NCBI GenBank assembly: GCA_017433295.1
Contig: JAFRHL010000021.1
Location: forward strand, 16,110-80,109
Origin: Eubacterium sp.
Lineage (GTDB): Bacteria > Bacillota > Clostridia > Lachnospirales > Lachnospiraceae
Length of the DNA stretch: 64,000 bases
Direction: 5' to 3'
In this document: positions 27,608-54,037 of the stretch, piece by piece
Position numbering within the stretch: the first letter of the stretch is position 1
How the letters are laid out: every line of letters starts with the position of its first letter
Translations under genes and position numbers: made by a program
Notes under the pieces: model-generated
What the model was told of the DNA's origin: nothing
The model's database searches: none
Seen by the model: only the letters and a program-made list of their open reading frames with translations

Positions 27608-28753
27608 ATGGCAGAAAAAACAATAGAGCCAAATGTTATAATGGAGAATGAAGAGGAACTTGAGAACCTTATGTTTTCAGGAGAGGGGGAGAGTCCGCTT
27701 TTTTCCTCTGTCAGAGTGGTAAGGAAAGACTTTTCTGTATTTGAACTATACAGAAAGTATAATAAGAATCCAAGGCAGTTGATGTTGGATGTAGATTTTC
27801 AGAGAAAAAGTGTCTGGGATCCGAAACAGAAACGTGAATTGATTGAAAGTATTCTGATGGGTCTGCCTCTTCCAATTATTTATTTAAAACAACAGAATAA
27901 TGCTACTTATGCAGTAGTAGATGGCAAACAGCGACTATCCACGTTATTTGGTTTTATTGATAACAAGTTTTGCTTAAAAGACCTTAAAATACTTTCTTTT
28001 CTGAATGGAAAATATTTCAAGGATTTAACAGGCGATTATGGTATTTACCAGTCACAATTAGAGGACTATCAATTATATATCCATCTGATTCTTCCTCCTA
28101 CTCCTGATAAAATCCTTTTTGATATTTTTGACAGAGTGAACAGAGGAGGAACAAAGCTGAATAAGCAGGAAATCAGAAATGCATTATATCATGGCAAAGG
28201 CATGGATATGATTTCATCTGTCAACAGATCGCAGATTTTTCAAAAAGTAACCCGTATTAAATATAAAGATGACAGAAGAATGAAAGGTTCTTATCTTATT
28301 ACCAGATTTTTATCCTTTTATCTATTGTTTGAGAACTTGTTATATAAAGATGGGAAACCCTATAATTATTCGGGTGACATAGATGACTTAATAGAGGTTT
28401 CTTTGGCAACCCTTAATAGAATGTCGGATAAGGATTTGCAGAACCTGGAGAGATTGATATCTGAAAGTCTAGAGATTTCAAATGATATTCTTGGAGATGG
28501 TGCTTTTCGCAGAGAAATGAACAGGTCTAAACCCATTAATATGAATATCTTTGAAACTACATTATATTTTATGAATTTGATAAATAATGATAAAGATTTT
28601 ATTCCATATGGAAAGATCAGACTGGCATTAAAGAAAACAATTATGTCAGATGATTTTCTGGATTACATTGGGAACAGCAGAGAGAATACAATAAAAGTAC
28701 ATGGCAGATTTGGTATGATGGATGAGTTATTCAGGGAGCTTCACGATGATTGA
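27608..28753 (+). CDS. DUF262 (ParB/GmrS-like) protein
   Basis: 381 residues. The N-terminal DUF262 domain is clear: DFQRKSVWDPKQKRELIESI, then PLPIIYL and the catalytic-type motif VVDGKQRLSTL (DGKQR about 104-108). FDRVNRGGTKLNKQEIRNA closes the domain. DUF262 is the NTP-hydrolysing half of GmrSD type IV restriction enzymes and also occurs in standalone proteins of defence islands. No GmrD-type HNH nuclease domain is visible here, so it is not a complete GmrSD. Overlaps the next gene by 8 bp. AT-rich compared with lepA and rpsT. Confidence 0.85.
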   Translation: MAEKTIEPNVIMENEEELENLMFSGEGESPLFSSVRVVRKDFSVFELYRKYNKNPRQLMLDVDFQRKSVWDPKQKRELIESILMGLPLPIIYLKQQNNATYAVVDGKQRLSTLFGFIDNKFCLKDLKILSFLNGKYFKDLTGDYGIYQSQLEDYQLYIHLILPPTPDKILFDIFDRVNRGGTKLNKQEIRNALYHGKGMDMISSVNRSQIFQKVTRIKYKDDRRMKGSYLITRFLSFYLLFENLLYKDGKPYNYSGDIDDLIEVSLATLNRMSDKDLQNLERLISESLEISNDILGDGAFRREMNRSKPINMNIFETTLYFMNLINNDKDFIPYGKIRLALKKTIMSDDFLDYIGNSRENTIKVHGRFGMMDELFRELHDD

Positions 28754-29807
28754 GAGGATTCATATTACAGCTTTAAAATCAATCAGAGATTTATCGGTCA
28801 AGTGTTCGAAATTGAATATACTGACCGGCACGAATTCCAGCGGTAAGTCTACCTTTTTGCAGGCGTTATTATTATTTGCCCAGGAGAAGCTTAGTGGTGA
28901 GTTGATTTCTCTGGGTGAATTCAGGGAAGTCAGGAACTATTATATGCCAACAGATGACATCAAAGTGGAAATCTGTGAATCAGATAAAACACAACCTTCC
29001 TGGATACAGTTTTCCGAAGATAAAGATGCGGATAGTTATAAAAAGACGCAATCCTCATCTCATATCAAAGAATGGGGATTACATTATTTATCATGTCACA
29101 GGACAGGAGTTAATGATATATATTTAAAAAACATGCCCGTTGAAGATAATTTTGGAATAGATGGACAATATGCACTGGCATTTTTACTGAAGAATGAAAG
29201 CACCCCTGTATGTGCTGATCTGCTTGTTTATCATGATGAATATACAAATAGTTTGTTTGATCAGGTCAACTACTGGATGAAATATATTATCGATACCAAC
29301 TTAATAGTAAATGACCTGAAAAAGACAAATTATATGCAGGTAAAATACAATAATAATCCTGCGAATAGATCTTCCGAGGCTCTGTTTTGTCGTCCTGTCA
29401 ATGTCGGATCCGGTGTCAGCTATCTGATAAGCATAATTATAACATGTCTTGGCGCTAAGGAAGATTCCGTTATTGTGATTGAGAATCCAGAGATACACCT
29501 ACATCCAAAGGCCCAATCAAGATTGAGTGAATTCTTGTATTTTGTCAGTAATTCAGGACGTCAGTTATTTGTTGAAACTCATAGTGATCACATTTTTAAT
29601 GGGCTGCGTGCAGGAGTAGCTACAGGTCAGATGTCCATGGATCATATTGCTGTTAACTTTTTCGCAATGAATGATCAATATGAAACTTTGAATAATCCAA
29701 TAGTATTTGGAGATTATGGAAGAATAACAGGCACTAATAAAGAAATGTCTCTTCAAGATCTGTTTGACCAGTTTGAGATAGACCTTGATAAAATGATGGG
29801 ATTATAA
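28746..29807 (+). CDS. AAA/OLD-like ATPase with DUF3696-type C-terminus
   Basis: 353 residues from the ATG at 28746 (after GGGAG), overlapping the DUF262 gene. The N-terminus is an SMC/OLD-type ABC ATPase half: ITALKSIRDLSVKCSKLNIL, Walker A GTNSSGKST (about 27-35). The C-terminal half has signature-like SGVSYLISII, Walker B VIVIENPEIHLHPKAQSRL and switch FVETHSDHIFNGLR. A DUF3696-like tail follows. There is no TOPRIM nuclease domain. Such ATPases often act as sensors in abortive-infection systems. Confidence 0.85.
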   Translation: MIERIHITALKSIRDLSVKCSKLNILTGTNSSGKSTFLQALLLFAQEKLSGELISLGEFREVRNYYMPTDDIKVEICESDKTQPSWIQFSEDKDADSYKKTQSSSHIKEWGLHYLSCHRTGVNDIYLKNMPVEDNFGIDGQYALAFLLKNESTPVCADLLVYHDEYTNSLFDQVNYWMKYIIDTNLIVNDLKKTNYMQVKYNNNPANRSSEALFCRPVNVGSGVSYLISIIITCLGAKEDSVIVIENPEIHLHPKAQSRLSEFLYFVSNSGRQLFVETHSDHIFNGLRAGVATGQMSMDHIAVNFFAMNDQYETLNNPIVFGDYGRITGTNKEMSLQDLFDQFEIDLDKMMGL

Positions 29808-29827
29808 AACGGGTATTGATCTGAATT

Positions 29828-30583
29828 ATGAATTATTATATAAATGACTACTCTTTGAGAGGACAGTTTGACAGTATTGAAGAATTTCTTGATTCAATGA
29901 GAGAGTACACTTTTCCTGTATTGGCAAAGATTAATACTGAACAGGGAAGCATTGTATTTAAAAAAGACAATTTATGGAATAAAGAAGTTTGTCATGGAAT
30001 TACACTGAATCAGCTGGCAACAGGCAGATATATCCGCTATCCGGAAATGTCCAATTTTAAAATAAAACTGTTAAAACTTATAAATCAGGAACCTTTCTGG
30101 GATGATGCTGATATTCATAATCTTACTATAAAAGAGTATGGATTTGATAAACAATTCAGTGAGTGTTTTGACACTGTCAACTGTTTCATGAAGGCAATAG
30201 TAGATGACGGGAGAATTATTTCATTTTTTCATCCTGAATACCATGACCCGACACTCCGGGTCATAGTTTTACATAATGGCATAGAAAAGAAATACCTGAT
30301 AGATAATATATATTCGATTTCCTGGTGGGAGTACGAACCTCAGATAAAGCATTGGACTATTTCCCCAGGGTATTATATTGAGATAAGAGCCAGGGAATTT
30401 GATTTTCATCCGCCACATTTCCATGTAAGACTGAATGAATATGAGGCAGTATTTAAACTCAGTGATGGCAGTTTATATAAATATGGAAAAAAAGAGTGGA
30501 AATCCTGGATGATTACCGATATACAAGAGTGGTTTAAGAATAATAAGATAGAACTTAAGGTAATATGGGATTCATTACATTGA
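29828..30583 (+). CDS. Third cassette protein with C-terminal DUF4160-like domain
   Basis: 251 residues. I do not recognise the first two thirds. The C-terminal 65 residues (HPPHFHVRLNEYEAVFKL to WFKNNKIELKVIWDSL) match the DUF4160 pattern: a PPHFHV start and a closing W. DUF4160 proteins are often paired with toxin-like genes. It begins 20 bp after the ATPase gene and ends 45 bp before lepA, so it is the last gene of the cassette. Role unknown; a toxin/effector or regulatory part of the cassette is a guess. Confidence 0.7.
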   Translation: MNYYINDYSLRGQFDSIEEFLDSMREYTFPVLAKINTEQGSIVFKKDNLWNKEVCHGITLNQLATGRYIRYPEMSNFKIKLLKLINQEPFWDDADIHNLTIKEYGFDKQFSECFDTVNCFMKAIVDDGRIISFFHPEYHDPTLRVIVLHNGIEKKYLIDNIYSISWWEYEPQIKHWTISPGYYIEIRAREFDFHPPHFHVRLNEYEAVFKLSDGSLYKYGKKEWKSWMITDIQEWFKNNKIELKVIWDSLH

Positions 30584-34065: not shown

Positions 34066-34902
34066 ATGGAAATCATCATAAAAGAGAATTATCTCTCAGA
34101 CTTTAAGGCTCAATTAAGATCAGAAGAAAAAAGTGCACACACCATCCAAAAGTATATCCGTGACACAAAGGCCTTTGCGGCTTACATTGGAGAGAACCCG
34201 GTCACTAAAGAGAGGGTCATGGAGTATAAGGAGCATCTAATCAGCCAGGGCTATGCCGTCGGCAGCATCAACTCCATGCTGGCATCCCTCAACAGCTTCT
34301 TAAGATTTATGGGCTGCGACCACTGCCGGGTACGGCATTTGCGGGTGCAGAAATCCATCTATTGTCCCGAGGAGAAGGAACTGACCAGGAATGAATACTT
34401 CAGACTGCTAAAAGCCGCCGGCAAACAGCCCCGGCTAAAAATGATCCTCGAAACCATCTGCGGCACAGGGATAAGGGTGTCGGAGCTTCAATATTTTACA
34501 CTGGAAAATGTGCGCCGGGGCGAAGTCACCGTTTCCTGCAAAAATAAGACCAGGACCATTCTGCTTCCCAGAAAGCTTAGGCTTAAGCTGCTGGATTATT
34601 CCAGAAGGCAGGGGATCAAAGAAGGACACATATTCAGGACCAGGACCGGGGCCCCTGTGAACCGGACCAACATCTGGGCTTCCATGAAAAAGCTCTGCCG
34701 GGAGGCCCGTGTCTGTCCCGGCAAGGTCTTTCCTCACAATTTAAGAAAGCTTTTTGCCCGGACTTTTTACAGTATGCAGAAGGATATCGCGGGGCTGGCG
34801 GATGTGCTGGGACACAGTAATATCAATACGACCAGGATATATATTATGACTACGATAAGGGAGCATCAGAAGAAGATCGACAGCATGGGGCTGGTGGTGT
34901 GA
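34066..34902 (+). CDS. Tyrosine recombinase / integrase
   Basis: Site-specific recombinase, 278 residues. SAM-like N-terminal core-binding domain (about 8-85, SAHTIQKYIRDTKAFAAYIG) and a catalytic domain with Arg I in GTGIRVSEL (about 135), the second-box His/Arg in PHNLRKLF (about 223-226; Lys replaces the usual His after Arg), GHSN and the nucleophile Tyr in TTRIYI (about 258). Size and lack of an arm-binding domain resemble XerC/D and DNA-invertase types rather than phage integrases. Its stop is 13 bp from one of two perfect 24-bp inverted repeats, its likely substrate (inference). Confidence 0.93.
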   Translation: MEIIIKENYLSDFKAQLRSEEKSAHTIQKYIRDTKAFAAYIGENPVTKERVMEYKEHLISQGYAVGSINSMLASLNSFLRFMGCDHCRVRHLRVQKSIYCPEEKELTRNEYFRLLKAAGKQPRLKMILETICGTGIRVSELQYFTLENVRRGEVTVSCKNKTRTILLPRKLRLKLLDYSRRQGIKEGHIFRTRTGAPVNRTNIWASMKKLCREARVCPGKVFPHNLRKLFARTFYSMQKDIAGLADVLGHSNINTTRIYIMTTIREHQKKIDSMGLVV

Positions 34903-34914
34903 AGGGGGAAGGGA

Positions 34915-34938
34915 CATAATTTATATAATGTAGTAATC
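34915..34938 (+). repeat. Left inverted repeat of the invertible segment (IRL)
   Basis: 24 bp, the exact reverse complement of 35307-35330. It begins 13 bp after the recombinase stop. Homology ends abruptly on both sides. Its inner half ATGTAGTAAT is also present, inverted, within the right repeat. Confidence 0.85.
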
Positions 34939-34967
34939 GGTCGTCATGATGGATAAACAGACGCAAA

Positions 34968-35086
34968 AAAAGACAGCAGGAAGTATGCCTGCAAGTTCCG
35001 TTGCTCCTCGAAAGGAAAGAAACCGGACCTGTTTCTTTCATTCTGCGGTGCAAAGTCGCTTTCAGACATACTTCCTGCTGTCTTTT
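34968..35086. repeat. 24-bp imperfect inverted repeat inside the switch
   Basis: 34968-34991 pairs with 35063-35086 with one mismatch; inside are a 9-bp hairpin GAAAGAAAC/GTTTCTTTC (35015-35039) and a GCAA/TTGC hairpin (34991-35004). The outer stem is flanked by A-run and T-run, so it can act as a terminator on either strand. That would insulate the promoter from the recombinase side in both orientations. A MITE-like element or a small structured RNA is the alternative. Confidence 0.6.
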
Positions 35087-35242
35087 CTGCTGAATCGTTT
35101 AAGGCATCATGATATTACCCTTTAAAAAAGTGTCCCTGGCAGGAGTAATTTCTCCTCAAATTGGTAAAATATGGCCTTTTTCGATGTTGATATTAGATAA
35201 GTATTGTCAATTGTAAGACTAGGTTTTGTTCAAAAGACATAA

Positions 35243-35271
35243 TTGATTTTCTGGATGCTATATAGTATACT
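35243..35271 (+). promoter_or_regulatory. Outward promoter inside the invertible segment
   Basis: TTGATT (35243-35248), 17-bp spacer, TATACT (35266-35271), predicted start near 35278. The right inverted repeat lies in the resulting 5' leader. It is the only good promoter seen before the helicase gene and hence before the polysaccharide genes. Confidence 0.65.
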
Positions 35272-35306
35272 ATTAAACACATATCTATCTATTATTTATG
35301 ATATAT

Positions 35307-35330
35307 GATTACTACATTATATAAATTATG
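35307..35330 (-). repeat. Right inverted repeat of the invertible segment (IRR)
   Basis: Exact reverse complement of 34915-34938. The right copy also forms a larger dyad, ATTACTACAT (35308-35317) with ATGTAGTAAT (35328-35337), typical of paired recombinase-binding arms around a crossover region. Confidence 0.85.
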
Positions 35331-35372
35331 TAGTAATTATAGGAGTTTTCGCGGATTCCCGGGAGGTCGTTG

Positions 35373-37601
35373 ATGGCCATTGCGTTGTATGAACACAATG
35401 AGACGGCATACAAGGCAGCGATGAAGCTGCTTTCTGAAAAAGGCAAGGCGGCGGTGATTCATCCCACCGGTACCGGCAAGTCTTTTATTGCCTTCAAGCT
35501 ATGCGAAGACCACCCGGACAAAAAGATATGCTGGCTTTCGCCTTCGGCTTACATTTTTAAGACCCAGGTGGAGAACCTGAAGGCTTCCTTGGCAAAGGAG
35601 AAGCAAAAGCTTCATGGGAAGGAATGCGACCGGTCACAGACAGGGGATGAGGAGGAAGACCTGTCCCCGGTGACTGACAATATTTCCTTTTATACTTATG
35701 CGAAGCTTATGTCCATGCCGGATCCCGAGATCCGGGCCATTGAGGCGGACTACATCATCCTGGACGAGTTCCACCGCTGCGGGGCAAAAATGTGGGGAGA
35801 GGGAGTGGATACTCTGCTCAGTTCCCATAAGGATGTTCCCGTTCTGGGTCTTTCGGCCACGGCGGTACGCCATCTGGATCACTGCAGGAATATGGCGGAT
35901 GAGCTCTTTGAGGGGAATATTGCTTCCGAGATGTCACTGGGGGAAGCCATAGTAAGGGGAATCCTTTATCCGCCCAGGTACATCTTGTCTATCTACAGCC
36001 GCAGACAGGAGCTTGACAAGTATGAGAAGAGGGTCAGGAAGGCGAGAAATGCGGCAGTCCGCCAGAATGCGGAGAAGTATCTGGAGGAGCTGAAGAGGGC
36101 TTTGGAGAATGCGGAGGGCCTTGACCTGGTATTTGAGAAGCATATGACTGTGAAGGACGGTAAGTATATTGTTTTCTGCACAGATTATGAGCATCTTAAG
36201 GAAATGTCGGGAAAGGTTCCGGAATGGTTTGGCCGGGTAGATTCCAGCCCCCATGTTTACATTGCCTATTCAGATGATCCTGCCACCAGCCGTCAGTTTC
36301 AGGAGTTTAAAGCTGACCAGAGCGAACACCTGAAGCTTCTTTTCTGTATAGACATGTTAAATGAAGGAATTCATCTGGATGATATTCAAGGTGTGATCCT
36401 TCTTCGGCCCACGGTTTCGCCCATCGTCTTTAAGCAGCAGATCGGCCGGGCATTTTCGGCCGGGAAGCAGAAGGAAGCAGTAATCTTTGACATTGTATTA
36501 AACATTGAGAACCTATACAGCATCGACGCCCTGCAGGAGGAAATGGACCTGGCCACGGCCTGGTACCGGTCAGCGGGGGAAGAGTCGAAGATCCTCAATG
36601 AACACTTTGAGATCACCTGCGAGGCAGAGGACTGTCTCCGTCTGTTCTCACAACTGAATGAATCCCTGACCGCCTCCTGGAACTACATGTTCTCGGAAGC
36701 GGAGAAATATTATAAAGAAAATGGAGACCTGAACGTACCCAAACGGTACATCACACCATCAGGCTTCTCCCTGGGATCCTGGCTTTCTACCCAGCGTCAG
36801 ATCCATGCCGGAAAGATTCCGGGACGGCTGACAGAGGATCAGGTAAGCAGGCTTGACAGCATCGGAATGTGCTGGCTGAGCCGGACTGACTTAAGCTGGG
36901 ATAAATATTACAGAGCCGCCGAAAAGTACCGGCAGGAGCATGGCCACCTGCTGGTCAAATACAGGGAAAGCTATGACGGCGTCAGGCTCGGCGCATGGAT
37001 CAAGAGCATGCGCACCTACAGAAAAAGTGGTATCCAGAAGAACTATCTCACCCCCGGCAGGATCCGGCAGCTGGATCAGCTGGGAATGGTCTGGGATATT
37101 CCTGATTATATATGGGAGCAGAATTATCACGCTGCCATGCGTTACCACCGGAATTACGGAGATCTCAATGTAAGACCGGATTATATCGATCCGGAGGGGA
37201 TCCATCTGGGCCTCTGGCTCAACCGGGTCCGCAACGTGAAGAACGCTCCGGAGAAATATAAGGACCAGCCTCTCACCATAGAACAGATCAAAGCTCTGGA
37301 CGCCCTGGGCATGACCTGGGGATCAAGGCATGATGAGAAGTGGAACCGGGCCTACCGGGAGGCATGCCGTTACCGGGATCGGTTCGGCAACCTGGATATT
37401 CCGGCATCCTATATCACAGAAGACGGGGAGCATTTCCGGCTGGGAAGATGGCTCAGACGCCAGAAGGAAAGCTGGCAGAAGGGGAAACTCTCAGGGGAAA
37501 GGCTGGAGAAGCTTAAAAAGATCGGAATGGTTTGCACATATCATGAACAATATGAACAGAACAAATCAGAAGAAATCAATATTGTCGGGTCTTACTTTTG
37601 A
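35373..37601 (+). CDS. DEAD/DEAH-box helicase with four helicase-associated (HA) repeats
   Basis: 742 residues. SF2 helicase core: Walker A HPTGTGKSF (about 29-37), DEFH box YIILDEFHRCG, motif III GLSATAVR, motif VI QQIGRAFSAGK. From about 430 to the end are four HA domains of about 70 residues, each W..Y..A..Y....G.L.V...Y....G..LG.WL..R and ending LGM.W. Such proteins are usually unassigned or tied to DNA defence. Here it is the first gene behind the invertible promoter and overlaps capD, so it belongs to the switched operon. ATG at 35373 follows GGGAGG. Role in polysaccharide synthesis unknown. Confidence 0.88.
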   Translation: MAIALYEHNETAYKAAMKLLSEKGKAAVIHPTGTGKSFIAFKLCEDHPDKKICWLSPSAYIFKTQVENLKASLAKEKQKLHGKECDRSQTGDEEEDLSPVTDNISFYTYAKLMSMPDPEIRAIEADYIILDEFHRCGAKMWGEGVDTLLSSHKDVPVLGLSATAVRHLDHCRNMADELFEGNIASEMSLGEAIVRGILYPPRYILSIYSRRQELDKYEKRVRKARNAAVRQNAEKYLEELKRALENAEGLDLVFEKHMTVKDGKYIVFCTDYEHLKEMSGKVPEWFGRVDSSPHVYIAYSDDPATSRQFQEFKADQSEHLKLLFCIDMLNEGIHLDDIQGVILLRPTVSPIVFKQQIGRAFSAGKQKEAVIFDIVLNIENLYSIDALQEEMDLATAWYRSAGEESKILNEHFEITCEAEDCLRLFSQLNESLTASWNYMFSEAEKYYKENGDLNVPKRYITPSGFSLGSWLSTQRQIHAGKIPGRLTEDQVSRLDSIGMCWLSRTDLSWDKYYRAAEKYRQEHGHLLVKYRESYDGVRLGAWIKSMRTYRKSGIQKNYLTPGRIRQLDQLGMVWDIPDYIWEQNYHAAMRYHRNYGDLNVRPDYIDPEGIHLGLWLNRVRNVKNAPEKYKDQPLTIEQIKALDALGMTWGSRHDEKWNRAYREACRYRDRFGNLDIPASYITEDGEHFRLGRWLRRQKESWQKGKLSGERLEKLKKIGMVCTYHEQYEQNKSEEINIVGSYF

Positions 37602-39609
37602 GCATTGGAAAATCATCGCCGGATGTATGGTGGTATATGACATCATCGCTGTCAATGCAGCCTATTTCCTTGCTCTTTTACTGCGCTTTGACTTCAGGTA
37701 TTCTTTTATACCTTCCCAGTATCTGGTTCCCTTTTTCCGTTTCGCTCCCGCCTATACATTCTTCAGTATCGGCACCTTCATTATCTTCAGGCTCTACAGG
37801 AGCATCTGGCGTTTTGCCAGTTATGACGAGCTGATCCGGGTGATCGGGGCTTCCATTGTGACCGCTTTCTTCCATACCATAGTACTCACTGCCCTTTTTC
37901 AGAGGATGCCGCTTTCCTACTATATTATCGGCGCCATTCTCCAGTTCATCCTGGTCCTTGCGGTACGGTTTTCCTACCGTTTTGTCCTGTTGCTCCAGAG
38001 CAGGTCGCGGAGGGGAGAAAACAGCAGGAGCCCTGTTCCCAATATCATGGTGGTAGGTGCCGGCAATGCCGGACAGGCCCTGATCCGGGATATCCGCCTG
38101 GCCCAGGAAGTAAAGGGAAGGGTGGTGTGCATCATCGATGACAACCCCAATAAGAGGGGAAGATACATAGACGGCATAGAGGTGGTGGGCAGCCGGGACT
38201 GCATCCCGGAGGCAGTGAGGGACTACCAGGTGGACAAGATTTACCTGGCCATGCCCAGTGCGAGCCCTGTGGAGAAGAGGGAGATCCTGGAGATCTGCAA
38301 GAATACCTCCTGCGAACTGAAAACCATCCCGGGCCAGTACCAGTTCATCACCGGAGAGATCACCGCCAGCAAGATGAAGAAGGTGGAGATCGAGGACCTG
38401 CTGGGAAGGGACCCGGTCACCCCTGACATGGACGGGATCTCCCGTTTTGTAAAGGGGAAGAGCGTCCTGATCACCGGAGGGGGAGGCAGCATCGGGTCCG
38501 AGCTGGCCAGGCAGGTGGCCGCCCAGAATCCCGCCAGACTTATCCTGGTGGACATTTATGAGAACAATGCCTACGAGATCCAGCTGGAACTTAAAAAAAA
38601 GTATCCAGACCTTGACCTGGAGGTCATCATCGGCTCTGTCAGGGACAGCAGGATGATGTTCAAGGTCTTTGAAAGATTTCGGCCCCAGGTCGTATACCAC
38701 GCGGCGGCCCACAAGCATGTGCCTCTGATGGAGGATACCCCCTGCGAGGCTATCAAGAACAATGCCATCGGTACTTACAAGACGGCCTATGCCGCCATGT
38801 CCCACGGCTGTGAGAGGTTTATCCTCATCAGCACCGACAAGGCAGTCAACCCCACCAACATCATGGGCGCTTCCAAGCGTCTTTGTGAGATGATCTGTCA
38901 GGCCTTTGACCATAAGGTCAAAGAAGGGAAGGCCAGTGAGATCCCCCAGCTCTTTACCCATACGAAGGATGTGGTCACCAGCGTGGGTGTCCTTAAGGAG
39001 CTCAAGGAGACTAAGACGGAATTCGTTGCCGTGCGCTTCGGGAACGTGCTGGGCAGCAACGGGTCCGTGATCCCGGTCTTTAAGAGGCAGATCGAGAACG
39101 GCGGCCCTGTCACCGTGACCCACAAGGACATCGTCCGTTACTTTATGACCATCCCGGAGGCGGTGGGTCTGGTCCTGGTGGCCGGGACCTACGCAAAGGG
39201 CGGGGAGATCTTCGTCCTTGACATGGGGGAGGAAGTAAAGATCGATACCCTGGCCAGGAATATGATCCGCCTGTCGGGTTACAGGCCGGATGTGGACATA
39301 AAGATCGAATATACCGGGCTCCGTCCCGGCGAGAAGCTTTATGAGGAGAAACTCATGGCCGAGGAAGGACTTAGGCGGACACCCAACAAGCGGGTGCACA
39401 TCGGATGCCCGATTCCCTTTGACATCGAAGACTTCCTGGGGCAGCTAAAGGAACTGATGGAGGCTGCCTATAAGAATAAGGAAAATATCCGGGAACTGGT
39501 GGCCGAGGTGGTGAATACCTATCATCCGGAACAAGGCGGGGAAGCCGGTGCCCAGAAAGCGGAAGATGCCCGGGACAGGGCGATGAAGGAGGCAGCTGTG
39601 GCGGGGTGA
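37543..39609 (+). CDS. capD: Membrane nucleoside-diphosphate-sugar 4,6-dehydratase/epimerase (CapD/FlaA1 type)
   Basis: Likely converts UDP-GlcNAc to a 4-keto-6-deoxy sugar, the first step to modified sugars such as bacillosamine or FucNAc. 688 residues: four N-terminal TM helices (about 15-150), a CoA-binding-like Rossmann domain (VVGAGNAGQALIRDIRL) and the SDR catalytic domain with TGGGGSIGSELARQV and STDKAVNPTNIMGASKR (TDK in place of YxxxK motif as in PglF/CapD). The start at 37543 lies 59 bp inside the helicase gene and has a poor RBS, suggesting coupling; ATG 37552 is an alternative. Confidence 0.93.
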   Translation: MNNMNRTNQKKSILSGLTFEHWKIIAGCMVVYDIIAVNAAYFLALLLRFDFRYSFIPSQYLVPFFRFAPAYTFFSIGTFIIFRLYRSIWRFASYDELIRVIGASIVTAFFHTIVLTALFQRMPLSYYIIGAILQFILVLAVRFSYRFVLLLQSRSRRGENSRSPVPNIMVVGAGNAGQALIRDIRLAQEVKGRVVCIIDDNPNKRGRYIDGIEVVGSRDCIPEAVRDYQVDKIYLAMPSASPVEKREILEICKNTSCELKTIPGQYQFITGEITASKMKKVEIEDLLGRDPVTPDMDGISRFVKGKSVLITGGGGSIGSELARQVAAQNPARLILVDIYENNAYEIQLELKKKYPDLDLEVIIGSVRDSRMMFKVFERFRPQVVYHAAAHKHVPLMEDTPCEAIKNNAIGTYKTAYAAMSHGCERFILISTDKAVNPTNIMGASKRLCEMICQAFDHKVKEGKASEIPQLFTHTKDVVTSVGVLKELKETKTEFVAVRFGNVLGSNGSVIPVFKRQIENGGPVTVTHKDIVRYFMTIPEAVGLVLVAGTYAKGGEIFVLDMGEEVKIDTLARNMIRLSGYRPDVDIKIEYTGLRPGEKLYEEKLMAEEGLRRTPNKRVHIGCPIPFDIEDFLGQLKELMEAAYKNKENIRELVAEVVNTYHPEQGGEAGAQKAEDARDRAMKEAAVAG

Positions 39610-39707: not shown

Positions 39708-40160
39708 TTGGATATCAGCCTCTGGTATTATCTGGCGGCCTTCCTTCTGTTCCTGGGAGTGTGGGCAGTAAGCTGGAAGGTCAGCGCCGGGCTGTTGGCC
39801 GGATATGTGTTGTTCATTTTGGCAGTTACGATTCTGAGCCGGACACCTACAGATATGATGAAGGTAGAACTAAAGCTTTTCTGGTCCTATGATATCCCCG
39901 AACTCCGGGAACAGATTATCTGGAATGTCCTGAGTTTTATACCTGTCGGTGTGTTGGGAGCGGTACTTGTCAGATGGAGGGGCATACCGATGGCTGCAGG
40001 GTTGAGTGTGGTCATAGAACTGCTGCAGCTGGTGACCTTGAGGGGGCTCTTCGAATTTGACGATACCATCCATAATTCTGCCGGGGCAGCGGCGGGGGTG
40101 GTAGCATGGATGGTTGTTTGCGGGGAATGGGTGAGGAGAGGCTCGGACGAGAAATATTAG
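39708..40160 (+). CDS. VanZ-family membrane protein
   Basis: 150 residues with four hydrophobic helices and the VanZ pattern: ILSRTPTD, NVLSFIPVGVLGA, VVIELLQLVTLRGLFEFDD, HNSAGAAAGVVAW. VanZ-like proteins are common in cell-wall and polysaccharide loci; function is undefined apart from teicoplanin resistance for VanZ itself. The start is problematic: TTG at 39708 has no RBS, while GGAGGG (39674-39679) sits before an in-frame ATA at 39687. Confidence 0.85.
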   Translation: MDISLWYYLAAFLLFLGVWAVSWKVSAGLLAGYVLFILAVTILSRTPTDMMKVELKLFWSYDIPELREQIIWNVLSFIPVGVLGAVLVRWRGIPMAAGLSVVIELLQLVTLRGLFEFDDTIHNSAGAAAGVVAWMVVCGEWVRRGSDEKY

Positions 40161-40446
40161 TTACTTTTGTTGTGGAAGGAAGGAGAGTGTGTGGGGCTGA
40201 GGGTTTGATGAAAGAAACGTCTCCATGAAAGTTGCCAGCTAACTTTCTTAAAGAGGGTCGCAGAAGGCTTCCGCAAAGGGATCTGACAATCTTCCATAAA
40301 CAGGCGCTTTTTGGAAAGATGGTAAAAATCGGTCAAGTTTGTCAGTAGGGATGATGTTCATTAAAAATCGGCTGAGATCGCCAAGTGTACCGAACATTTA
40401 AGACTAACCACCAGCAGAAACAGCTACAGTTATTGACATCACTAAC

Positions 40447-40730
40447 TGTCTTAAAGAGTCGGTCGGGGTTGAAAATAATGTAGTTTACATTACAAGAGAC
40501 GGTTGGCATGAAAACTACATATTTATTGGACGGCTGAACCTCATCAACTGTCTTAAAGAAGTGGTCTTGGCAAGAGAAGATGAAATTGAATTAGCAGATG
40601 TATTTTTCATCTCCTTCAATGCGTACCAAGGGTGTTTAAGAAAGATCGTGATGTATGGAAGCTCAATAAATCTCTGACGATTCGAGCCGACAGGATACTG
40701 CCGGTTGGAATGGGCAGAGATGTTCAAAAG
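40447..40730 (+). repeat. Diverged direct repeat, copy A
   Basis: Matches copy B (42359-42662) in order: TGTCTTAAAGAG.CGGTCGGGG, GAAAATAATGTAGTTTACATT, GTCTTAAAGAAGTGGTCT, GGGTGTTTAAGA, then a hairpin unit starting GATTCGAG and ending TTGGAATGGG. Non-coding in all frames. Origin unknown; the pattern suggests a mobile or cassette-like unit. Confidence 0.7.
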
Positions 40731-40740
40731 AAAGGAAGAT

Positions 40741-40770
40741 AAAAAAAGAACCACCTCCCGGAGGAGGTGG
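40741..40770 (-). terminator. Terminator of the small minus-strand gene
   Basis: Minus strand: CCACCTCC-TCC-GGGAGGTGG then TTCTTTTTTT, 15 bp beyond the stop of the 102-residue protein. Confidence 0.8.
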
Positions 40771-40784
40771 CAGGCGGCAAAACG

Positions 40785-41093
40785 TCAAGCGATTCGTTTG
40801 GCAAGCAGCAACGGATGCTTTTTGCCGAGCTTGACGTCAGTCACATAGGTGCATTTGTAAGACGCATCTTTGGTGCGGAGCTCACTTCCTTCTTCGATGA
40901 AGAAGTTATGAGTGTCCCGCAACTCGCGGACGGTCTCCTCAAGCACGATCCTGACAGTGTCGCCTTCATCCACGACTTTCGCAAGAAACTCACGGATGTC
41001 TTTTCTATCCTTGTTTTTAAGGACAGTACTAGCGATCCAGACGGGAGTGGGCTGAAGCCCGCTCAGTGCCAATAACAATTTGGTGTCTTTCAT
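40785..41093 (-). CDS. Small protein of unknown function
   Basis: 102 residues, mixed charge, no membrane segment or recognised domain. The ATG at 41093 follows AAGGAGG; it has its own promoter and terminator, so it is a real, independently expressed gene. It opens MKDTKLLLALSGLQPTPVW and is rich in Lys/Asp/Glu. It is the only minus-strand gene in the polysaccharide region and lies between repeat copies A and B. I cannot assign a function. Confidence 0.7.
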   Translation of the reverse strand: MKDTKLLLALSGLQPTPVWIASTVLKNKDRKDIREFLAKVVDEGDTVRIVLEETVRELRDTHNFFIEEGSELRTKDASYKCTYVTDVKLGKKHPLLLAKRIA

Positions 41094-41408
41094 TTTGAAA
41101 AACCTCCTTCGTATTTTCAGGAGCATCTCTTGCGAGAGTCCCTATGTACACGGAGGCACTCCGGACCGCCACACATATTGTACCGCGAAAAGTGCAAGAA
41201 TTCAATAAACCAATGTGACGGTTATGTAAACAAGTTGGACGCCTCCCTTTAGGTAGTGTGGATATTAGCTCTACTGTCTGGCACAGTCAACGCCATTTCG
41301 GATAATAAAAGGCGTAAAAGACAGAGAAAGATTGCTGCCTATATGGGGTAAAATTGCACCAGAACCAACAAAGAACCACGATTCGTACTGCTAAGAAAGG
41401 CTTTGAAG
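41094..41408. other. Divergent intergenic region of two small genes
   Basis: 315 bp. It holds the minus-strand promoter and a leader with a CTCT-CGCA-AGAG hairpin. No clear promoter for the rightward gene and no further gene were seen. Confidence 0.5.
41177..41205 (-). promoter_or_regulatory. Promoter of the 102-residue protein gene
   Basis: Minus strand: TTGAAT, 17-bp spacer, TACAAT, about 84 bp from the start codon. Confidence 0.6.
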
Positions 41409-41852
41409 ATGAAAGCGTTCATGCGAATTGCCCTTGACGAGATGCCGAAAGATCCAGCGCCGATTGAGGCGGGGCAGCAAGCGACCGTCGCGGGATATGA
41501 CGATGCGGGGAACCTGATGGTTTCCTGGGATAATGGAAGCGGACTGAACCTGATCCCCGGCGTGGATAAATATCATGTTGTGGAAACGCCCGAGGAACTG
41601 GATCGCAGCTTCAACTGGCTATACAAACTCCAAATGGAACTGCCCGATGGAGAAAGCAGTAAATGTCCGCGATGCGGGAAACCATTCGATGCCCACAGAG
41701 GAGCAGTCTCAAGAAGGAAGTACGTTATGGTCTGTGACTTGTGCGGGCAGCAGGAAGCGGTAGAGGATTTACTTAAGGCGACAAAGAATGAGGAGCCTAA
41801 AGCCCTGGACGACTGGTACATCATCAAAGTCTGGCAGGGACGGGAAGTGTGA
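41409..41852 (+). CDS. DUF4314-like domain plus zinc ribbon protein
   Basis: 147 residues. The N-terminal half has the small beta-barrel pattern of DUF4314 proteins from mobile elements (EAGQQATVAGYDDAGNLMV, SWDNGSGLNLIPGVD). The C-terminal half has two CxxC pairs (CPRCGKPF and CDLCGQQE), a probable zinc ribbon. The ATG at 41409 is preferred; a TTG two codons upstream also fits. The family is typical of conjugative elements, which suggests this stretch is remains of one. Confidence 0.7.
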   Translation: MKAFMRIALDEMPKDPAPIEAGQQATVAGYDDAGNLMVSWDNGSGLNLIPGVDKYHVVETPEELDRSFNWLYKLQMELPDGESSKCPRCGKPFDAHRGAVSRRKYVMVCDLCGQQEAVEDLLKATKNEEPKALDDWYIIKVWQGREV

Positions 41853-41880
41853 ATCTACTGGCATCATTTCTCGGAGAAAA

Positions 41881-42048
41881 TGAACATTATCCCCCGATGC
41901 AAAATCGGGAAGCACCTTGAAAATCAAAAATGAACATTATCCCTCGGGATGTGATGTGCGGAAAAGAATGAACATCACCCTTCGGAGAAAATGAACATCA
42001 TCCCTCGGGACTTAATGTGGCGAAGTCAAAAATGAACATTATCCCTCG
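41881..42048 (+). repeat. Five spaced copies of a 16-bp repeat
   Basis: TGAACATTATCCCTCG or close variants at 41881, 41931, 41969, 41992 and 42033. Spacing is irregular (50, 38, 23, 41 bp) and no cas gene is near, so it is not a CRISPR. Multiple short copies of this type occur as transposase-binding sites at the ends of IS21- and Tn7-like elements; that identity is inference. Confidence 0.75.
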
Positions 42049-42358
42049 GAATGTGATGGGCTGTAACGAAATGGCTTTTTTCTGTGACGAAATTGGGTGT
42101 TTAAGACAGAATGTCATTTCCTTCAATGTGAAAAAGTGCGGAAAGTTTCCGCATTCCTGAAACGTCTTTAAGATAGATGGGGATGCAGATTTTTGTAATA
42201 AGGTACTAATAAATGCGGCTTAAATAGCGTGTTTTTTATCTATATTGCACAACAAATTTACTCTCTCACTAAAATATGTACAAAACATATAACCCCCAGG
42301 GTCGTATGAAACTTACATACCGCCGGAGCATCTTGCTACAAGGTTGTAGATTACATTC

Positions 42359-42662
42359 TGTCTTAAAGAGCCGGTCGGGGTTGAAAATAATGTAGTTTAC
42401 ATTCAAAGAGACGGTCGGCATTGAAGATGTACATTTATTGGAGCGTGCAGGGTCACGGAGTGTCTTAAAGAAGTGGTCTGGGTTGATAGAGATGAAGTTG
42501 TAATAAGGGAGATATTGTTCATCGGATTTCACGGAAACCGAGGGTGTTTAAGACAAAGCGGGAGGTTGAGGAGGCTCAATAAGAATTTCCTCTAACGATT
42601 CGAGACGATGATGGGGATCATCGTTTGGAATGGGTGGAGAAAAGTACAGCAGACGTTCAAGT
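42359..42662 (+). repeat. Diverged direct repeat, copy B
   Basis: Second copy of the unit at 40447-40730, running up to the toxin gene start. Its terminal hairpin is ATTCGAG-ACGATGAT-GGGG-ATCATCGT-TTGGAAT (42597-42632). Confidence 0.7.
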
Positions 42663-42663
42663 T

Positions 42664-42930
42664 ATGTTTGAAATAAACTACTCCGGGAAGTTTAAGAGAG
42701 ACTACCGCCTGATGAAGAAACGTGGCTACGATATGGAGGTCCTACGCGATGTGGTCGACTTGCTGAGAGCAGGTATTCCGCTGGATGATAAATATCATGA
42801 CCATCAGCTTGTCGCTGATTACGCAGGCAGCCGTGAGTGCCACATTAGACCTGACTGGCTGCTCATTTACTGGAAAGGGCAAGATTATATCGAGCTTCAG
42901 AGGACAGGGACACACAGTGATCTGTTTTAA
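42664..42930 (+). CDS. YafQ/RelE-family mRNA interferase toxin, orphan
   Basis: 88 residues. RelE/ParE-superfamily fold pattern of the YafQ branch: FEINYSGKFKRDYRLMKKRG, DKYHDHQLVADYAGSRECHI, RPDWLLIYW and a C-terminal LQRTGTHSDLF with the His used in YafQ ribosome-dependent cleavage. No DinJ/RelB antitoxin precedes it; the upstream DNA is non-coding repeat B. The ATG has a weak RBS. It may be silent, controlled by an antitoxin elsewhere, or a remnant. Confidence 0.82.
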   Translation: MFEINYSGKFKRDYRLMKKRGYDMEVLRDVVDLLRAGIPLDDKYHDHQLVADYAGSRECHIRPDWLLIYWKGQDYIELQRTGTHSDLF

Positions 42931-42944
42931 GAACAGTCTCTTCC

Positions 42945-42998
42945 GATTCGAGTTGATGAAAAATGTTCACCGGTTGGAATGAGCAGAGACGCTCACAA
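42945..42998 (+). repeat. Partial third copy (C) of the hairpin repeat
   Basis: GATTCGAG, stem TTGATGAA / TTCACCGG, then TTGGAATGAGCAGAGACG. It matches only the terminal hairpin part of copies A and B and lies 14 bp after the toxin stop, so the toxin is bracketed by copies B and C. Confidence 0.65.
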
Positions 42999-43162: not shown

Positions 43163-44527
43163 ATGGAAAAGAGAACAATCAGTTTTAGTCCGCCTGACAT
43201 CACCGAACTTGAAATTAATGAAGTCGCAGAAGCATTGCGTTCTGGTTGGATAACTACGGGACCGAGAACAAAGATGCTGGAATGCCGGCTTGCTGCATAT
43301 TTTGAAACTGGGAAAACAGATATTGACTGCACTAGCCGGGAGGCGATTGCAAAGTATAGCCAGAAGGTTGTGTGCTTAAATTCTGCCACGGCTGCGGAAG
43401 AATTGAACCTTCGCATCCTCGGCGTTGGCCCAGGTGATGAGGTGATAGTCCCAGCATATTCTTATACCGCTTCTGCGTCTGCCGCGATCCACTGCGGTGC
43501 AACGGTAGTGTTTGTGGATATTCAGAAAGATGGTGATCCGGATACTCATTGTCCGGAGATGGATTACGACGCCCTGGAAGCAGCTATTACTGAAAAGACC
43601 AAGGCGATCATTCCAGTTGATCTTGGTGGTATTGTCTGCGACTATGACCGGATTTTTGAGGTCGTGGAGCGGAAGAAGGATCTGTTCAATCCTATGATTT
43701 CCGATGGTACTCCATTATCAGATCTTAGTTCTGCTATCCAGCGCGGTTTGGGTTGTGTGGCGGTCGTATCCGATTGTGCTCACAGCCTTGGAGCGAGCCG
43801 TGTGGTGAGCAGAACCGGAGAAGGCAAGATCGTACCAACCCGCCGCTACTGTGGCAGAATCGCTCATTTTTCAAGTTTCAGCTTCCATGCGGTGAAAAAC
43901 TATACTACCGCCGAAGGTGGGGCAAGTACATGGTGCTTACCATCCTCCGTCTACGACGAGGGCGTGACGGATGCACAGATTTATAAGTTCTATCAGCTCT
44001 TATCTCTCCACGGCCAGAACAAAGACGCTCTGGCAAAAACGAAGGTCGGTGCTTGGGAATACGACATTATCGGGCCGTGGTATAAGTGCAACATGACGGA
44101 TATCATGGCGGCGATCGGTTTGCGGCAGTTGGATAGGTACCTATGCCTGCTAGATAGAAGAGTTGAGATGATGGCGAAGTATGACGCGGCTTGCGATGCG
44201 TTGGGAATAAGTCATATGGTTCATCATGTCGAGGGAATGGATAGTTCTAATCATCTGTACCTGATAAGAGTGCCGGGGATAGATGTTGAACAGAGGAATT
44301 TGATAATAGAGAAGATGGCTGAATGCGGTGTGTCCACCAATGTTCACTACAAGCCGATGCCAATGATGACTGCATATAAAGAGAGTAGCGGTGGGATAGG
44401 GCTGTATCCAAACGCTTATGACTATTATAAGAACTTAATCACGCTCCCGTTCCACACATTGCTGTCGGATGAGGACGTGGAGTATGTATGTGAGACGTTA
44501 AAGGAAGTAGTTAGTGAAGTTTGTTAA
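43163..44527 (+). CDS. DegT/DnrJ/EryC1-family sugar aminotransferase
   Basis: PLP enzyme that aminates a nucleotide-linked keto-sugar, probably the CapD product. 454 residues, longer than the usual 370-390. It starts with the family FSPPDITELEINEVAEALRS. CLNSATAAEE and DCAHSLGA bind PLP, and the Schiff-base Lys is in SFHAVKNYTTAEGG. Extra length comes from a segment at about 50-70 (FETGKTDIDCTSRE) and one near 165-200. The start follows GAGGAAA. First gene of the second part of the polysaccharide locus; overlaps VanZ by 14 bp. Confidence 0.92.
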   Translation: MEKRTISFSPPDITELEINEVAEALRSGWITTGPRTKMLECRLAAYFETGKTDIDCTSREAIAKYSQKVVCLNSATAAEELNLRILGVGPGDEVIVPAYSYTASASAAIHCGATVVFVDIQKDGDPDTHCPEMDYDALEAAITEKTKAIIPVDLGGIVCDYDRIFEVVERKKDLFNPMISDGTPLSDLSSAIQRGLGCVAVVSDCAHSLGASRVVSRTGEGKIVPTRRYCGRIAHFSSFSFHAVKNYTTAEGGASTWCLPSSVYDEGVTDAQIYKFYQLLSLHGQNKDALAKTKVGAWEYDIIGPWYKCNMTDIMAAIGLRQLDRYLCLLDRRVEMMAKYDAACDALGISHMVHHVEGMDSSNHLYLIRVPGIDVEQRNLIIEKMAECGVSTNVHYKPMPMMTAYKESSGGIGLYPNAYDYYKNLITLPFHTLLSDEDVEYVCETLKEVVSEVC

Positions 44528-44870
44528 ATGGGCTCTGGTAGCCGGCTATATCTTTTTCATACTGACACAGACAATACTGTTTCGATCAACGCACCCGGAA
44601 CCGATTTTCAAACCGCTATTTTGGGAACTTCAGAATGGCTACTGGTCTGATATCTGGCAAAATACTCTGTTGTTCATGCCGCTTGGATTTCTAATCGGTG
44701 GTTGGAAAGGAGTTGTGGGGGGCTTCCTTGTTTCCTGTTCTATAGAAACAGTACAGTACTTTACTCGATTAGGATTTTGTGAATTTGATGATGTGTTGAA
44801 TAACACAATTGGAGCTGGACTTGGAGCCATCCTTCTTCACACTGTTCGCAAATGCTTAAAAGAAAAATGA
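44514..44870 (+). CDS. Second VanZ-family membrane protein
   Basis: 118 residues. GTG start inside the DegT gene. VanZ pattern: GYIFFILTQTILFRS, NTLLFMPLGFLIGGW, VSCSIETVQYFTRLGFCEFDDVLNNTIGAGLG. A shorter relative of the protein at 39708, with the same E..Q....G..EFDD..N...G core. Three to four helices. Function in the locus unknown. Confidence 0.85.
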   Translation: MKFVKWALVAGYIFFILTQTILFRSTHPEPIFKPLFWELQNGYWSDIWQNTLLFMPLGFLIGGWKGVVGGFLVSCSIETVQYFTRLGFCEFDDVLNNTIGAGLGAILLHTVRKCLKEK

Positions 44871-44882
44871 AGGTTAATAAGG

Positions 44883-45527
44883 ATGGAAAATATGTATAGA
44901 AGATATATTAAACGATTACTTGATTTGATCATTAGTATTATAGGCTTTCCTTTCTTCTTAATAGCCCTCATCGTATTCGGACCAATCATAAAGGCAACGG
45001 ATAAGGGACCGGTTTTCTACAATGCGAAAAGAATTGGAAGGAACGGAAAACTGTTTAAAATGTTCAAGTTCCGTTCAATGTATGTTAATGCACCAGATAT
45101 CCGCTTAGCTGATGGATCTACATACAACGGAGAAGACGATCCCAGAGTAACCAAGGTGGGAAAGTTCATGCGTGCAACCAGCATCGACGAACTCCCGCAG
45201 TTAATCAACATGCTGAACGGAACGATGAGCTTAATTGGCCCGCGGCCCGATCCCCCAGATTGGCTTGATAAGTATCCAGAAGATATAAAGGTGTTCTTGA
45301 CCGTTCGCCCCGGATTGACCGGCTACAGTCAAGCATATTTCCGTAATGGTGCTGACGGTGAGCAGAAGATGAAGAACGATGCGTACTATGCACAACACGT
45401 TTCTTTCCTCTTTGATGTAAAGATTTTTTTTAAGACTATTGCCACTGTCCTTGGACATGAAGGAACATACAAAGATACATCGTCAGAAGAAGAAGCCGTA
45501 AAGCAGGCAGAAGCTCTGAAAAAGTGA
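44883..45527 (+). CDS. Undecaprenyl-phosphate sugar phosphotransferase (priming transferase)
   Basis: Transfers the first sugar-1-phosphate to undecaprenyl phosphate at the inner membrane, starting the repeat unit. 214 residues, single N-terminal helix (about 10-35) and the bacterial sugar transferase domain: YNAKRIGRNGKLFKMFKFRS, VTKVGKFMRATSIDELPQL, NGTMSLIGPRPDPP, RPGLTGYSQ. It lacks the long N-terminal membrane half of WbaP, matching PglC/EpsL-type monotopic enzymes. With CapD upstream, a diNAcBac- or FucNAc-like first sugar is plausible (inference). Confidence 0.94.
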   Translation: MENMYRRYIKRLLDLIISIIGFPFFLIALIVFGPIIKATDKGPVFYNAKRIGRNGKLFKMFKFRSMYVNAPDIRLADGSTYNGEDDPRVTKVGKFMRATSIDELPQLINMLNGTMSLIGPRPDPPDWLDKYPEDIKVFLTVRPGLTGYSQAYFRNGADGEQKMKNDAYYAQHVSFLFDVKIFFKTIATVLGHEGTYKDTSSEEEAVKQAEALKK

Positions 45528-45546
45528 TGAGAAGGAGTGCGGCAGA

Positions 45547-46599
45547 ATGGTTAAAGAATATGGCTATGAATACGATGCCGTACTCAATGAGCAAATATGG
45601 AAGGCTACAGAGGGCAAGGTAACAGATCAAAAGCTGATGGGTGCCAATTGCCTACGTAGTGGAAGGGATGCGCTTAAGGCGATTGCAAGAGAATATGAAC
45701 CCTGTGTGGCTCTATTGCCAGCTCTCGCCTGTGATTCTATGGTTCATCCCTTCGAATCGTATGGACACAAGATTCAGTATTATAGGCTGAATGAAGATTA
45801 TTCGATTAATCTGGAAAGTTTGAAAATTGGAGAAGAAAAGACTCTTTTCCTCTATGCTGATTATTTCGGGAAGCCGGCAATACAGGATGAGGAGCTTGAG
45901 AAGCTCAGAACACGTGGAAACATTATCTTCATTGAAGACAGAACCCACAACTTAGTCTGGGAGAGACGGTATAGCTTCAAGTCTGATTACATCATGGCAA
46001 GTCTCCGAAAATGGTTTCCTGTTCCGGATGGTGGATTACTCTGGGGCGAGATTACAAAGCCGCTTGGAAACGATACAACTTTCTCTATGACACGACTTAA
46101 AGCCCAATGCATGCGACATGAATTTTTAGTTTGTGGAGAAGAGAGCATAAAGACGGAGTATCGCAAGATCTTCTCTACAGTTTCTGATTTGATGGACGAA
46201 GATGGGCCGAGTGCTATGTCTGCTTACGCTTATGCGTTGGCGAGGGATACGGATTGGGATGAGGTGCGGAAAGCGAGGCAACAGAATGCTGAAGCTCTGA
46301 TCTCGATTCTGTCCACATCCCCCTATGTTAGTTTCATCCAGAATCAGTCTGGCAAAAGCGACCTCTATGTGTCATTTATCGTTCCCAACCGGGATGAGGT
46401 GCAGAGAAAGCTATCAGCAGAGGGAATCTTCAATACTATTATCTGGCCTCTGATGGACGAGCAGAAACACGTTTGCTCAGTAGCAAAAATCACCGAGGAA
46501 AACATGCTAGCTGCTCCGTGTGATCAGCGATATTCAACAGATGATATGAAAACAATAGGTGCTGAAATTGTGAGGGTTATAGCCGATGTTAACGGATAA
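45547..46599 (+). CDS. PLP-dependent aminotransferase-fold protein
   Basis: 350 residues. Fold-type I pattern: N-terminal LRSGRDALKAIAREY, VALLPALACDSMVHPFE, a TLFLYADYFGKPA segment, acidic IEDRTHNLV and a Lys-containing loop SLRKWFPVPDGGLLW that fits the PLP lysine. Distant from DegT; related proteins of unknown reaction occur in O-antigen loci. It overlaps the ATP-grasp gene by 14 bp, so both probably act on the same substrate, for example amino-acid or amino-sugar decoration. Confidence 0.72.
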   Translation: MVKEYGYEYDAVLNEQIWKATEGKVTDQKLMGANCLRSGRDALKAIAREYEPCVALLPALACDSMVHPFESYGHKIQYYRLNEDYSINLESLKIGEEKTLFLYADYFGKPAIQDEELEKLRTRGNIIFIEDRTHNLVWERRYSFKSDYIMASLRKWFPVPDGGLLWGEITKPLGNDTTFSMTRLKAQCMRHEFLVCGEESIKTEYRKIFSTVSDLMDEDGPSAMSAYAYALARDTDWDEVRKARQQNAEALISILSTSPYVSFIQNQSGKSDLYVSFIVPNRDEVQRKLSAEGIFNTIIWPLMDEQKHVCSVAKITEENMLAAPCDQRYSTDDMKTIGAEIVRVIADVNG

Positions 46600-48904: not shown

Positions 48905-48970
48905 AGGCAAAGTGTATGGTTCCTTTTCCAATGAATAGAAAACACGCTGAATGTTTTGGAGATATAATGC

Positions 48971-50053: not shown

Positions 50054-50129
50054 AGTAATGATACCCCGTAGGTTGGGAAAAGGATTATATAATGGCGGGA
50101 CTATAAAACGGCATTGGAGGGAAAACAGC

Positions 50130-52303: not shown

Positions 52304-52371
52304 AAGGTATTACACTTCTCCTTAAAAGTGAAATAAAGCGGCTACTGAATCGAAATTAAGGAAAGAGAATC

Positions 52372-53457: not shown

Positions 53458-54037
53458 GTCTTCTTAGTCACATATTTGTTCTAATTATTTGTGATTATTC
53501 TGCGCTATGGGGGCACCCCGACCGTAATTCAGAGTACCTTGACCACGCATGAGAGCAGTTGCCTCAATCCGCGGTTCAAAGCATACCTTGCCGATCTGCC
53601 AATTTCAACGGTAAGGCTCTCTGATCGGCTATAATAGCCACATAGACATTGTCAGGCCGGCAAGATCAGGGCAATTAAGCGGAATAAGGTTAGCTGCGCT
53701 GCGATCTACCTGCTCTGATAAGCAACTTGATTTCACCGAACAAGCGTCAGAGCACGATCTGAAATCGCGGCATAATTAATTTGAAAGGCTTTATGCTGCG
53801 CAACCAGTTTCTTGACTTTTTTTAGGCTGCTTTCCAAGTTCCTCTCACCTAACCATAATGAATCTACTACGCTTGCACTAATTACTTATCCCTTGATTCA
53901 GATGGGTATAATAGAGAGGAATATATGATTAATAAGACGAATTGTAAGGAATCTATATAGTAGTGTATTCTCCTAATTGGACAAATGGCCTTATAGAATT
54001 ATTGTTTTCAATTTAGAAGGATGAAAGGATTTCATAA
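53458..54037. other. Gene-free 580 bp between glycosyltransferase and polymerase
   Basis: No intact gene. GC content is visibly higher than in the genes around it. A minus-strand open stretch near 53745-53860 (QHKAFQINYAAISDRALTLV) ends in stops and has no start, so this may be the decayed end of an insertion sequence. TATAAT at 53907-53912 with TTACTT 19 bp upstream is a weak promoter candidate for the polymerase gene. Confidence 0.45.

Follow-up and report, generated by a model that had tools for sequence, protein, structure and literature searches.

The window, by which we mean the whole 64,000-nucleotide stretch of Eubacterium sp. DNA analyzed, contains a tyrosine recombinase gene, a short segment bounded by inverted repeats, and behind it a helicase gene followed by a long series of polysaccharide genes (Table 1). 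The site-specific recombinase gene (34066-34902) adjoins the segment and the arms around this short segment are identical (25/25 bp), as expected of the inverton class.

Table 1. Features of the locus and their positions in the window
Feature	Positions	Strand	Basis and remarks
XerC/D-like tyrosine recombinase, 278 aa, presumed dedicated invertase	34066-34902	+	Pfam Phage_integrase 3e-21, SAM_1
Left recombination site, core TTTATA at 34920-34925	34914-34938	+	Perfect 25-bp inverted partner, family motif
Predicted invertible segment, 368 bp between repeats	34939-35306	.	Bounded by both sites; relatives' homologous segments in both orientations
Dispersed structured hairpin element, 131 nt	34962-35092	.	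Fold z -9.2/-9.5 on the two strands
Promoter-like TTGATT-17-TATACT	35243-35271	+	-10 ends 60 bp from segment end; faces helicase (ON)
Right recombination site, core at 35320-35325, inverted register	35307-35331	-	Perfect 25-bp inverted partner
SF2 helicase, four HA stretches, first gene after the switch	35373-37601	+	Pfam HA 9e-69, ResIII, DEAD, Helicase_C
UDP-GlcNAc 4,6-dehydratase-like protein	37330-39609	+	Polysacc_synt_2 3e-113
VanZ-like membrane protein	39708-40160	+	Domain match
Remaining polysaccharide cluster	43163-58701	+	Family matches

The original prediction placed a tyrosine recombinase gene 13 bp before the left repeat; the Phage_integrase and SAM_1 matches bear out the enzyme, whereas the distance from its stop codon is 11 bases. 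Residues R137, H224, R227, H250, and Y259, placed by motif positions, are those we take to be catalytic. Scored against curated equivalog models, the enzyme reaches 131.6 bits for XerA (cut-off 220), 104.3 for XerD (329.6), and 102.9 for XerC (335.15), and so falls outside all three. At a threshold of E 0.001, its own genome has only two other relatives, both weak. At E 1e-50, 7 of the 24 genus genomes and 77 of the 397 family genomes have a relative, the window's own genome included in both counts. Four genomes (G076, G093, G196, and G300) have at least six matches each, and some genomes may carry many switches with this kind of recombinase.

Of the two perfect 24-bp inverted repeats claimed earlier (34915-34938 and 35307-35330), the perfection stands and the length does not, each arm measuring 25 bp. 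At the search settings used this is the top-scoring inverted pair within the 64-kb window, and the longest perfect arm obtained by simulation was 13 nt (200 first-order Markov runs, 2.5-kb region, arms at most 600 bp apart); given these two results we rejected a chance origin of the repeats. The dyad noticed in the right repeat is real and is the recombination site itself: both copies carry the family consensus ACATAAT-N4-ATTATGT, which represents the majority letters of both site copies at 98 loci of recombinase relatives. A search with a 23-nt part of the arm, allowing at most three mismatches, found no copies of the site beyond these two in the 2.9-Mb, 91%-complete genome.

The relatives were assembled from 140 other listed genus and family matches, 39 of 40 named loci, and the window, giving 180 loci, 178 of them distinct (L117 duplicates L026 and L283 duplicates L279; L040, a short match, was left out). 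An inverted pair was scored as lying directly behind the recombinase if it reached a score of at least 15 and started at most 100 bp from the recombinase stop; only loci extending 600 bp or more beyond the gene were counted. Such a pair is present at 124 of 148 distinct loci, compared with 1 of 140 upstream control windows under the identical test and 0 of 756 random control windows taken from a smaller locus set. The 24 loci that fail include L101, the most similar relative in the same genus (62% identity), as well as L032, L202, and L131; the L202 pair scores 13, under the threshold, and the L131 pair did appear in a separate scan. At L032 (about 5858-8179) inverted sites enclose about 2.3 kb.

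For a comparison of cores without circularity, both sites were located by their outer letters alone and the 6-bp core was compared afterwards. Two sites were found at 95 of the 148 loci; their cores are inverted-identical in all 95 and direct in none, and 72 distinct cores are represented. Cores that vary across genomes but are equal within a pair fit the requirement of a strand-exchange site. The window sites are, we presume, dif-like in layout, and the best family matches of the enzyme are XerA, XerD, and XerC, so the sites might be read as attachment or dimer-resolution (dif-like) sites between which the promoter is incidental. That reading is highly improbable given the uniform inversion of the cores (95/95, never direct), the distance of the enzyme below the XerA, XerD, and XerC cut-offs, and the fact that within the genome the site adjoins only this recombinase gene.

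The TTGATT-17-TATACT element reported earlier as aimed at the helicase operon is present and points in that direction. As a bare consensus match it is within chance (6 promoter-like sites in 2 kb vs. 4.3 expected); its position matches that of its counterparts in relatives. Segments in the relatives have a median length of 280 bp (range 197-510); that of the window measures 418 bp with its repeats and 287 bp once the hairpin element is subtracted, near the median. Using simple scores with weights of our own, so that promoters as well as terminators are predictions, we scanned 124 segments without a position limit and obtained 85 OFF, 16 ON, and 23 undecided, the -10 ending 40 to 80 bp from a segment end in 92 of the 101 decided segments. 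Limiting the scan to 40 to 95 bp gave 95 OFF, 17 ON, 11 undecided, and 1 unscorable, and among the first 56 segments, scanned with no limit, the -10 lay at 48 to 72 bp in 39/39 OFF and at 37 to 135 bp in 8 ON segments. The window is assembled ON and most scored relatives OFF; as a guess, the OFF excess among assemblies would be consistent with the recombinase being transcribed antisense in the OFF state.

Both orientations are represented among homologous segments. BLAST among the 56 segments returned 138 pairs in the same orientation and 41 in opposite orientation, the latter count including some short matches that reflect palindromic parts and one genome present twice (L026, L082). Long opposite matches link L004 with L015 (222 bp), L007 with L015 (207 bp), and L034 with both L010 (181 bp) and L011 (157 bp); within the genus, L071 is opposite to L067 and L068 over just 63 bp, and to L067 over 146 bp more. 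Opposite orientations are observed across species. Assembly breaks inside the switch would be expected if a sample held both orientations, and contig ends within 450 bp of the recombinase number 28 behind it vs. 7 before it (n = 179 loci, p 0.0005; the set includes two near-identical pairs and three ends from G261, and is partly non-independent), as compared with 15 behind and 17 before at 450 to 3000 bp; contig ends near the recombinase may have other causes. A first subset comprising 96 of the 140 matches had given pairs at 102/114 loci, 0/107 upstream, cores agreeing in 81/81, and contig ends of 19 vs. 6 of 135; the share of pairs is lower in the more distant matches, which were added last.

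Site pairs, core identity, both orientations in homologous segments, and contig ends make an invertible promoter switch heading a surface-polysaccharide locus, as originally proposed, the best reading. The sites, the enzyme, the promoter-like element, and the family-wide conservation are seen in the sequence, and on this footing we consider it very probable that the recombinase inverts the 368-bp segment and so switches the helicase-led polysaccharide genes ON and OFF. The enzyme would bind the two sites, swap strands at their common 6-bp core, and invert the segment. With the segment ON, as assembled, the promoter would drive the helicase together with the polysaccharide genes that follow; with the segment OFF, the promoter would face the other way, into the 3' end of the recombinase gene, where antisense transcription may damp the recombinase, and a hairpin with T7 between recombinase and operon would act as a terminator. 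We infer both flipping in the window strain and the resulting ON/OFF expression.

The hairpin element is an addition to the original prediction. Writing out the flipped sequence places the T7 after the hairpin on the side toward the helicase and operon, a terminator-like arrangement. The genome has 57 matches to this family, reduced to 38 places once hits on both strands are merged (the window copy and 37 more); 16 of the 38 places form eight head-to-head pairs, 104 to 301 bp apart, and matches occur in 9 of 24 genus genomes, including the window's own. Among 14 aligned copies, both-sided changes occur in 18 of 32 predicted pairs, and two internal strands are nearly invariant. As a known RNA the element was rejected: nothing in the window matches Rfam at gathering score, the best E-value for the segment being 0.023 (malK-II, 26.6 bits vs. 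a gathering score of 52.9).

Orientation could also exert its effect by way of a non-promoter element such as this hairpin while the main promoter lies outside the segment, a reading compatible with inversion. The flipped hairpin does end in T7, and the available text on the pdcB switch of Clostridioides difficile describes a contributing promoter upstream of that switch (PMC9286219); the relatives' segments mostly have a promoter-like element at a similar place, and we regard this alternative as unlikely. Quite unlikely, in our estimate, is a decayed switch, in which the sites and enzyme are relics, the segment is fixed ON, and the operon is constitutive. It would accommodate the single orientation at hand, the 131-nt dispersed element within the segment, and the 24 of 148 relatives without a pair by our test; the two 25-bp arms are nevertheless identical, the recombinase ORF is intact with its expected motifs, and both the promoter and the start codon sit at suitable positions.

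Behind the switch as we read it, the first-ATG ORF of the dehydratase gene overlaps the helicase, and its true start is probably later. The distal cluster encodes a DegT aminotransferase, a sugar-1-P transferase, an ATP-grasp protein, glycosyltransferases, a weak Wzy match, and a hexapeptide transferase, together with some ORFs without a family match. An island interrupts the polysaccharide locus at 40423-42998. Because of it the reach of the transcript over the whole cluster is uncertain, and the island may cut later genes off from the switch. Two direct repeats of 148 nt lie within it, 1912 bp apart and 76% alike; it also carries a gene for a YafQ-type toxin (42625-42930), a DUF4314 gene, and, at 41862-42070, repeated units around AATGAACATTATCCCTCGG.

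The genes behind the relatives' switches are more varied. Pfam assignments of the first genes (51 of 52 listed) include Band_7 (5), DUF7601 (5), and signal peptidases (3), with two each of BspA repeats, collagen repeats, LPXTG anchors, and HA domains; the 88 later genes (87 of 116 listed and one of L025) include camelysin, sortase, pilin, and polysaccharide families. This spread indicates varied cargo, surface proteins included. A whole helicase behind the pair was found, among 79 loci checked besides the window, only at L025, where the gene after the helicase is a Polysacc_synt_2 dehydratase, like that of the window. The first genes of L121 and L125 match the window helicase only in its C-terminal part, which bears the HA domains.

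Several known systems resemble parts of this arrangement. Mpi of Bacteroides is a serine enzyme acting on many regions, and UpxY, a NusG-like antiterminator, is the typical first gene of Bacteroides capsule loci; the first gene here is an HA helicase, which sets the window apart from a UpxY-type locus. The fim switch of Escherichia coli has a promoter in its segment beside tyrosine recombinases, and differs in having two recombinases, other sites, and other cargo. Its segment is likewise short, about 300 bp in the available part of one survey (PMC5903667). From the same kind of excerpt, the Bacteroides capsule promoters share with the window an invertible promoter ahead of polysaccharide operons (Mpi, PMC5903667; UpxY, PMC11892184), and we also count their several loci per genome as a likeness. 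The C. difficile switches likewise have a short segment and short inverted repeats (RecV, PMC5903667; pdcB, PMC9286219), the pdcB switch being described as 174 bp with 19-bp repeats and a promoter inside (PMC9286219); RecV serves several switches (PMC5903667), whereas the window switch lies directly behind its own recombinase.

Closest by description is inverton group 139, paired with invertase group 35, in Clostridia of the human gut, which, in the available text, has 32 of 33 invertons clostridial and a tyrosine-type recombinase/integrase close by in non-regulatable orientation, from a study that detected invertons in sequencing reads and gives a median of 3 invertons per genome for Firmicutes_A (PMC11892184). 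Unlike the window, the group has no helicase or polysaccharide cargo named for it in that text (PMC11892184). In the portion available of the second survey, 14 of 15 inversion-positive Firmicutes are Clostridia, and the commonest functions near their inversion sites are signaling and chemotaxis, not polysaccharide (PMC5903667). With clostridial invertons beside a tyrosine recombinase already in print, and a recombinase family of varied cargo, the window switch is of a kind already known. Among the literature matches listed, judged by titles and the starts of abstracts, we found no helicase-led invertible polysaccharide operon, nor, in a scope mostly outside subscription papers, a link of such a helicase with several kinds of invertase.

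The less expected part appears, from the loci compared, to be that helicase-led polysaccharide loci have site pairs beside differing machinery: a small XerC/D-like enzyme, an in-segment integrase, or a serine recombinase. At E 1e-100, 14 of 397 family genomes have orthologues of the helicase (P0002), 7 of them with at least two copies; at E 1e-50 an orthologue is present in 2 of 24 genus genomes, the second having internal stops. Across the order they occur in 6 of 392 genomes, adding G735, G544, and G673. A PF03457 search at 1e-20 matched 1 of 295 genomes, a limit too strict for a 64-residue domain and hence little informative. The SF2 motifs are invariant in 17 aligned sequences. Profile matches in solved structures comprise a putative helicase (7clg), a type I restriction R subunit, and RadD, with weak matches to FANCM and another putative helicase. 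A named defense protein was considered and rejected, as PADLOC gives partial matches, the best being PbeA (3e-21, residues 14-377).

Upstream sequence exceeds 1000 bp at 20 of the helicase loci (24 and the window together), and in 15 of these an inverted pair ends at most 320 bp from the helicase with a score of at least 17, a score limit chosen after initial inspection; such a pair is also present at L162, where 967 bp are available. At 40% identity or more the pair is present at 16 of 18 loci from 12 genomes, as compared with 0 of 342 control ORFs. L157 barely reaches the score limit, and L162 and L179 are near-identical sisters, the L179 helicase containing a stop with the pair retained. 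By this upstream test no pair precedes the helicase at L154, at L170 (a helicase with stops), or at L180-L182, which have 31 to 34% identity and come from G544 and G673, of another family of the order; L153, L155, L160, and L165, whose sequence starts 124 to 256 bp before the helicase, are outside the count. Downstream proteins of 15 helicase loci (84 of 85 listed) include Glycos_transf_1 (14), Bac_transf (13), and DegT (9). At L154, which lacks a pair, polysaccharide genes were recognized before the helicase and none after it.

The recombination machinery of these loci is diverse. At L157, L161, L163, L164, L168, L169, and L171 the segment spans 1.2 to 1.6 kb and encloses the gene of a Phage_integrase protein of 327 to 392 aa, with minus-strand placement in L168 and L171; the protein of L163 has little in common with the window recombinase (55 aligned residues at 33%). 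A serine Resolvase gene lies directly before the segment at L162 and L166 (158 and 154 bp). Segments are 308 to 438 bp at L152, L156, L159, and L167 and 916 bp at L158; in the part of the ORFs scanned, no recombinase was recognized beside these five, and a recombinase-motif ORF lies 2.5 to 3.6 kb upstream at L158. By eye, the arms of L152, L158, and L159 resemble those of L169, and those of L167 resemble L163 and L168, a likeness that makes action in trans possible. L163 and L168 belong to one genome, G413. Their segments match in opposite orientation (1430 bp, 76.6%), their integrases are 78% identical, and a TTGACA-17-TATAAT points away from the helicase in one and toward it in the other; the alignment suggests that a single genome has its two loci in opposite states.

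The placement of the helicase ahead of polysaccharide genes suggests an operon-tied role, for example in elongation of a long transcript, like UpxY. We tentatively propose, as possible rather than probable, that the family's phase-variable polysaccharide operons have the HA-domain SF2 helicase as a dedicated component, a functional UpxY counterpart that either aids RNA polymerase along the long operon or acts between loci. Under this proposal such operons would have recruited unrelated tyrosine and serine invertases repeatedly, and a genome would often have two such loci, each in a different state. At L152, a NusG-domain gene after the helicase (7148-7924) recalls LoaP or UpxY antiterminators.

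The arrangement offers a sequence rule for spotting candidate phase-variable surface-sugar loci in clostridial bacteria and a possible reason for assembly breaks at such loci, and it makes the helicase a candidate regulator or helper of polysaccharide expression. Cell-to-cell variation of the sugar coat would bear on phage resistance, immune recognition, and colonization. Elsewhere in the window, three genes at 27608-30583 match PADLOC NsnA, NsnB, and NsnC and form a candidate anti-phage system.
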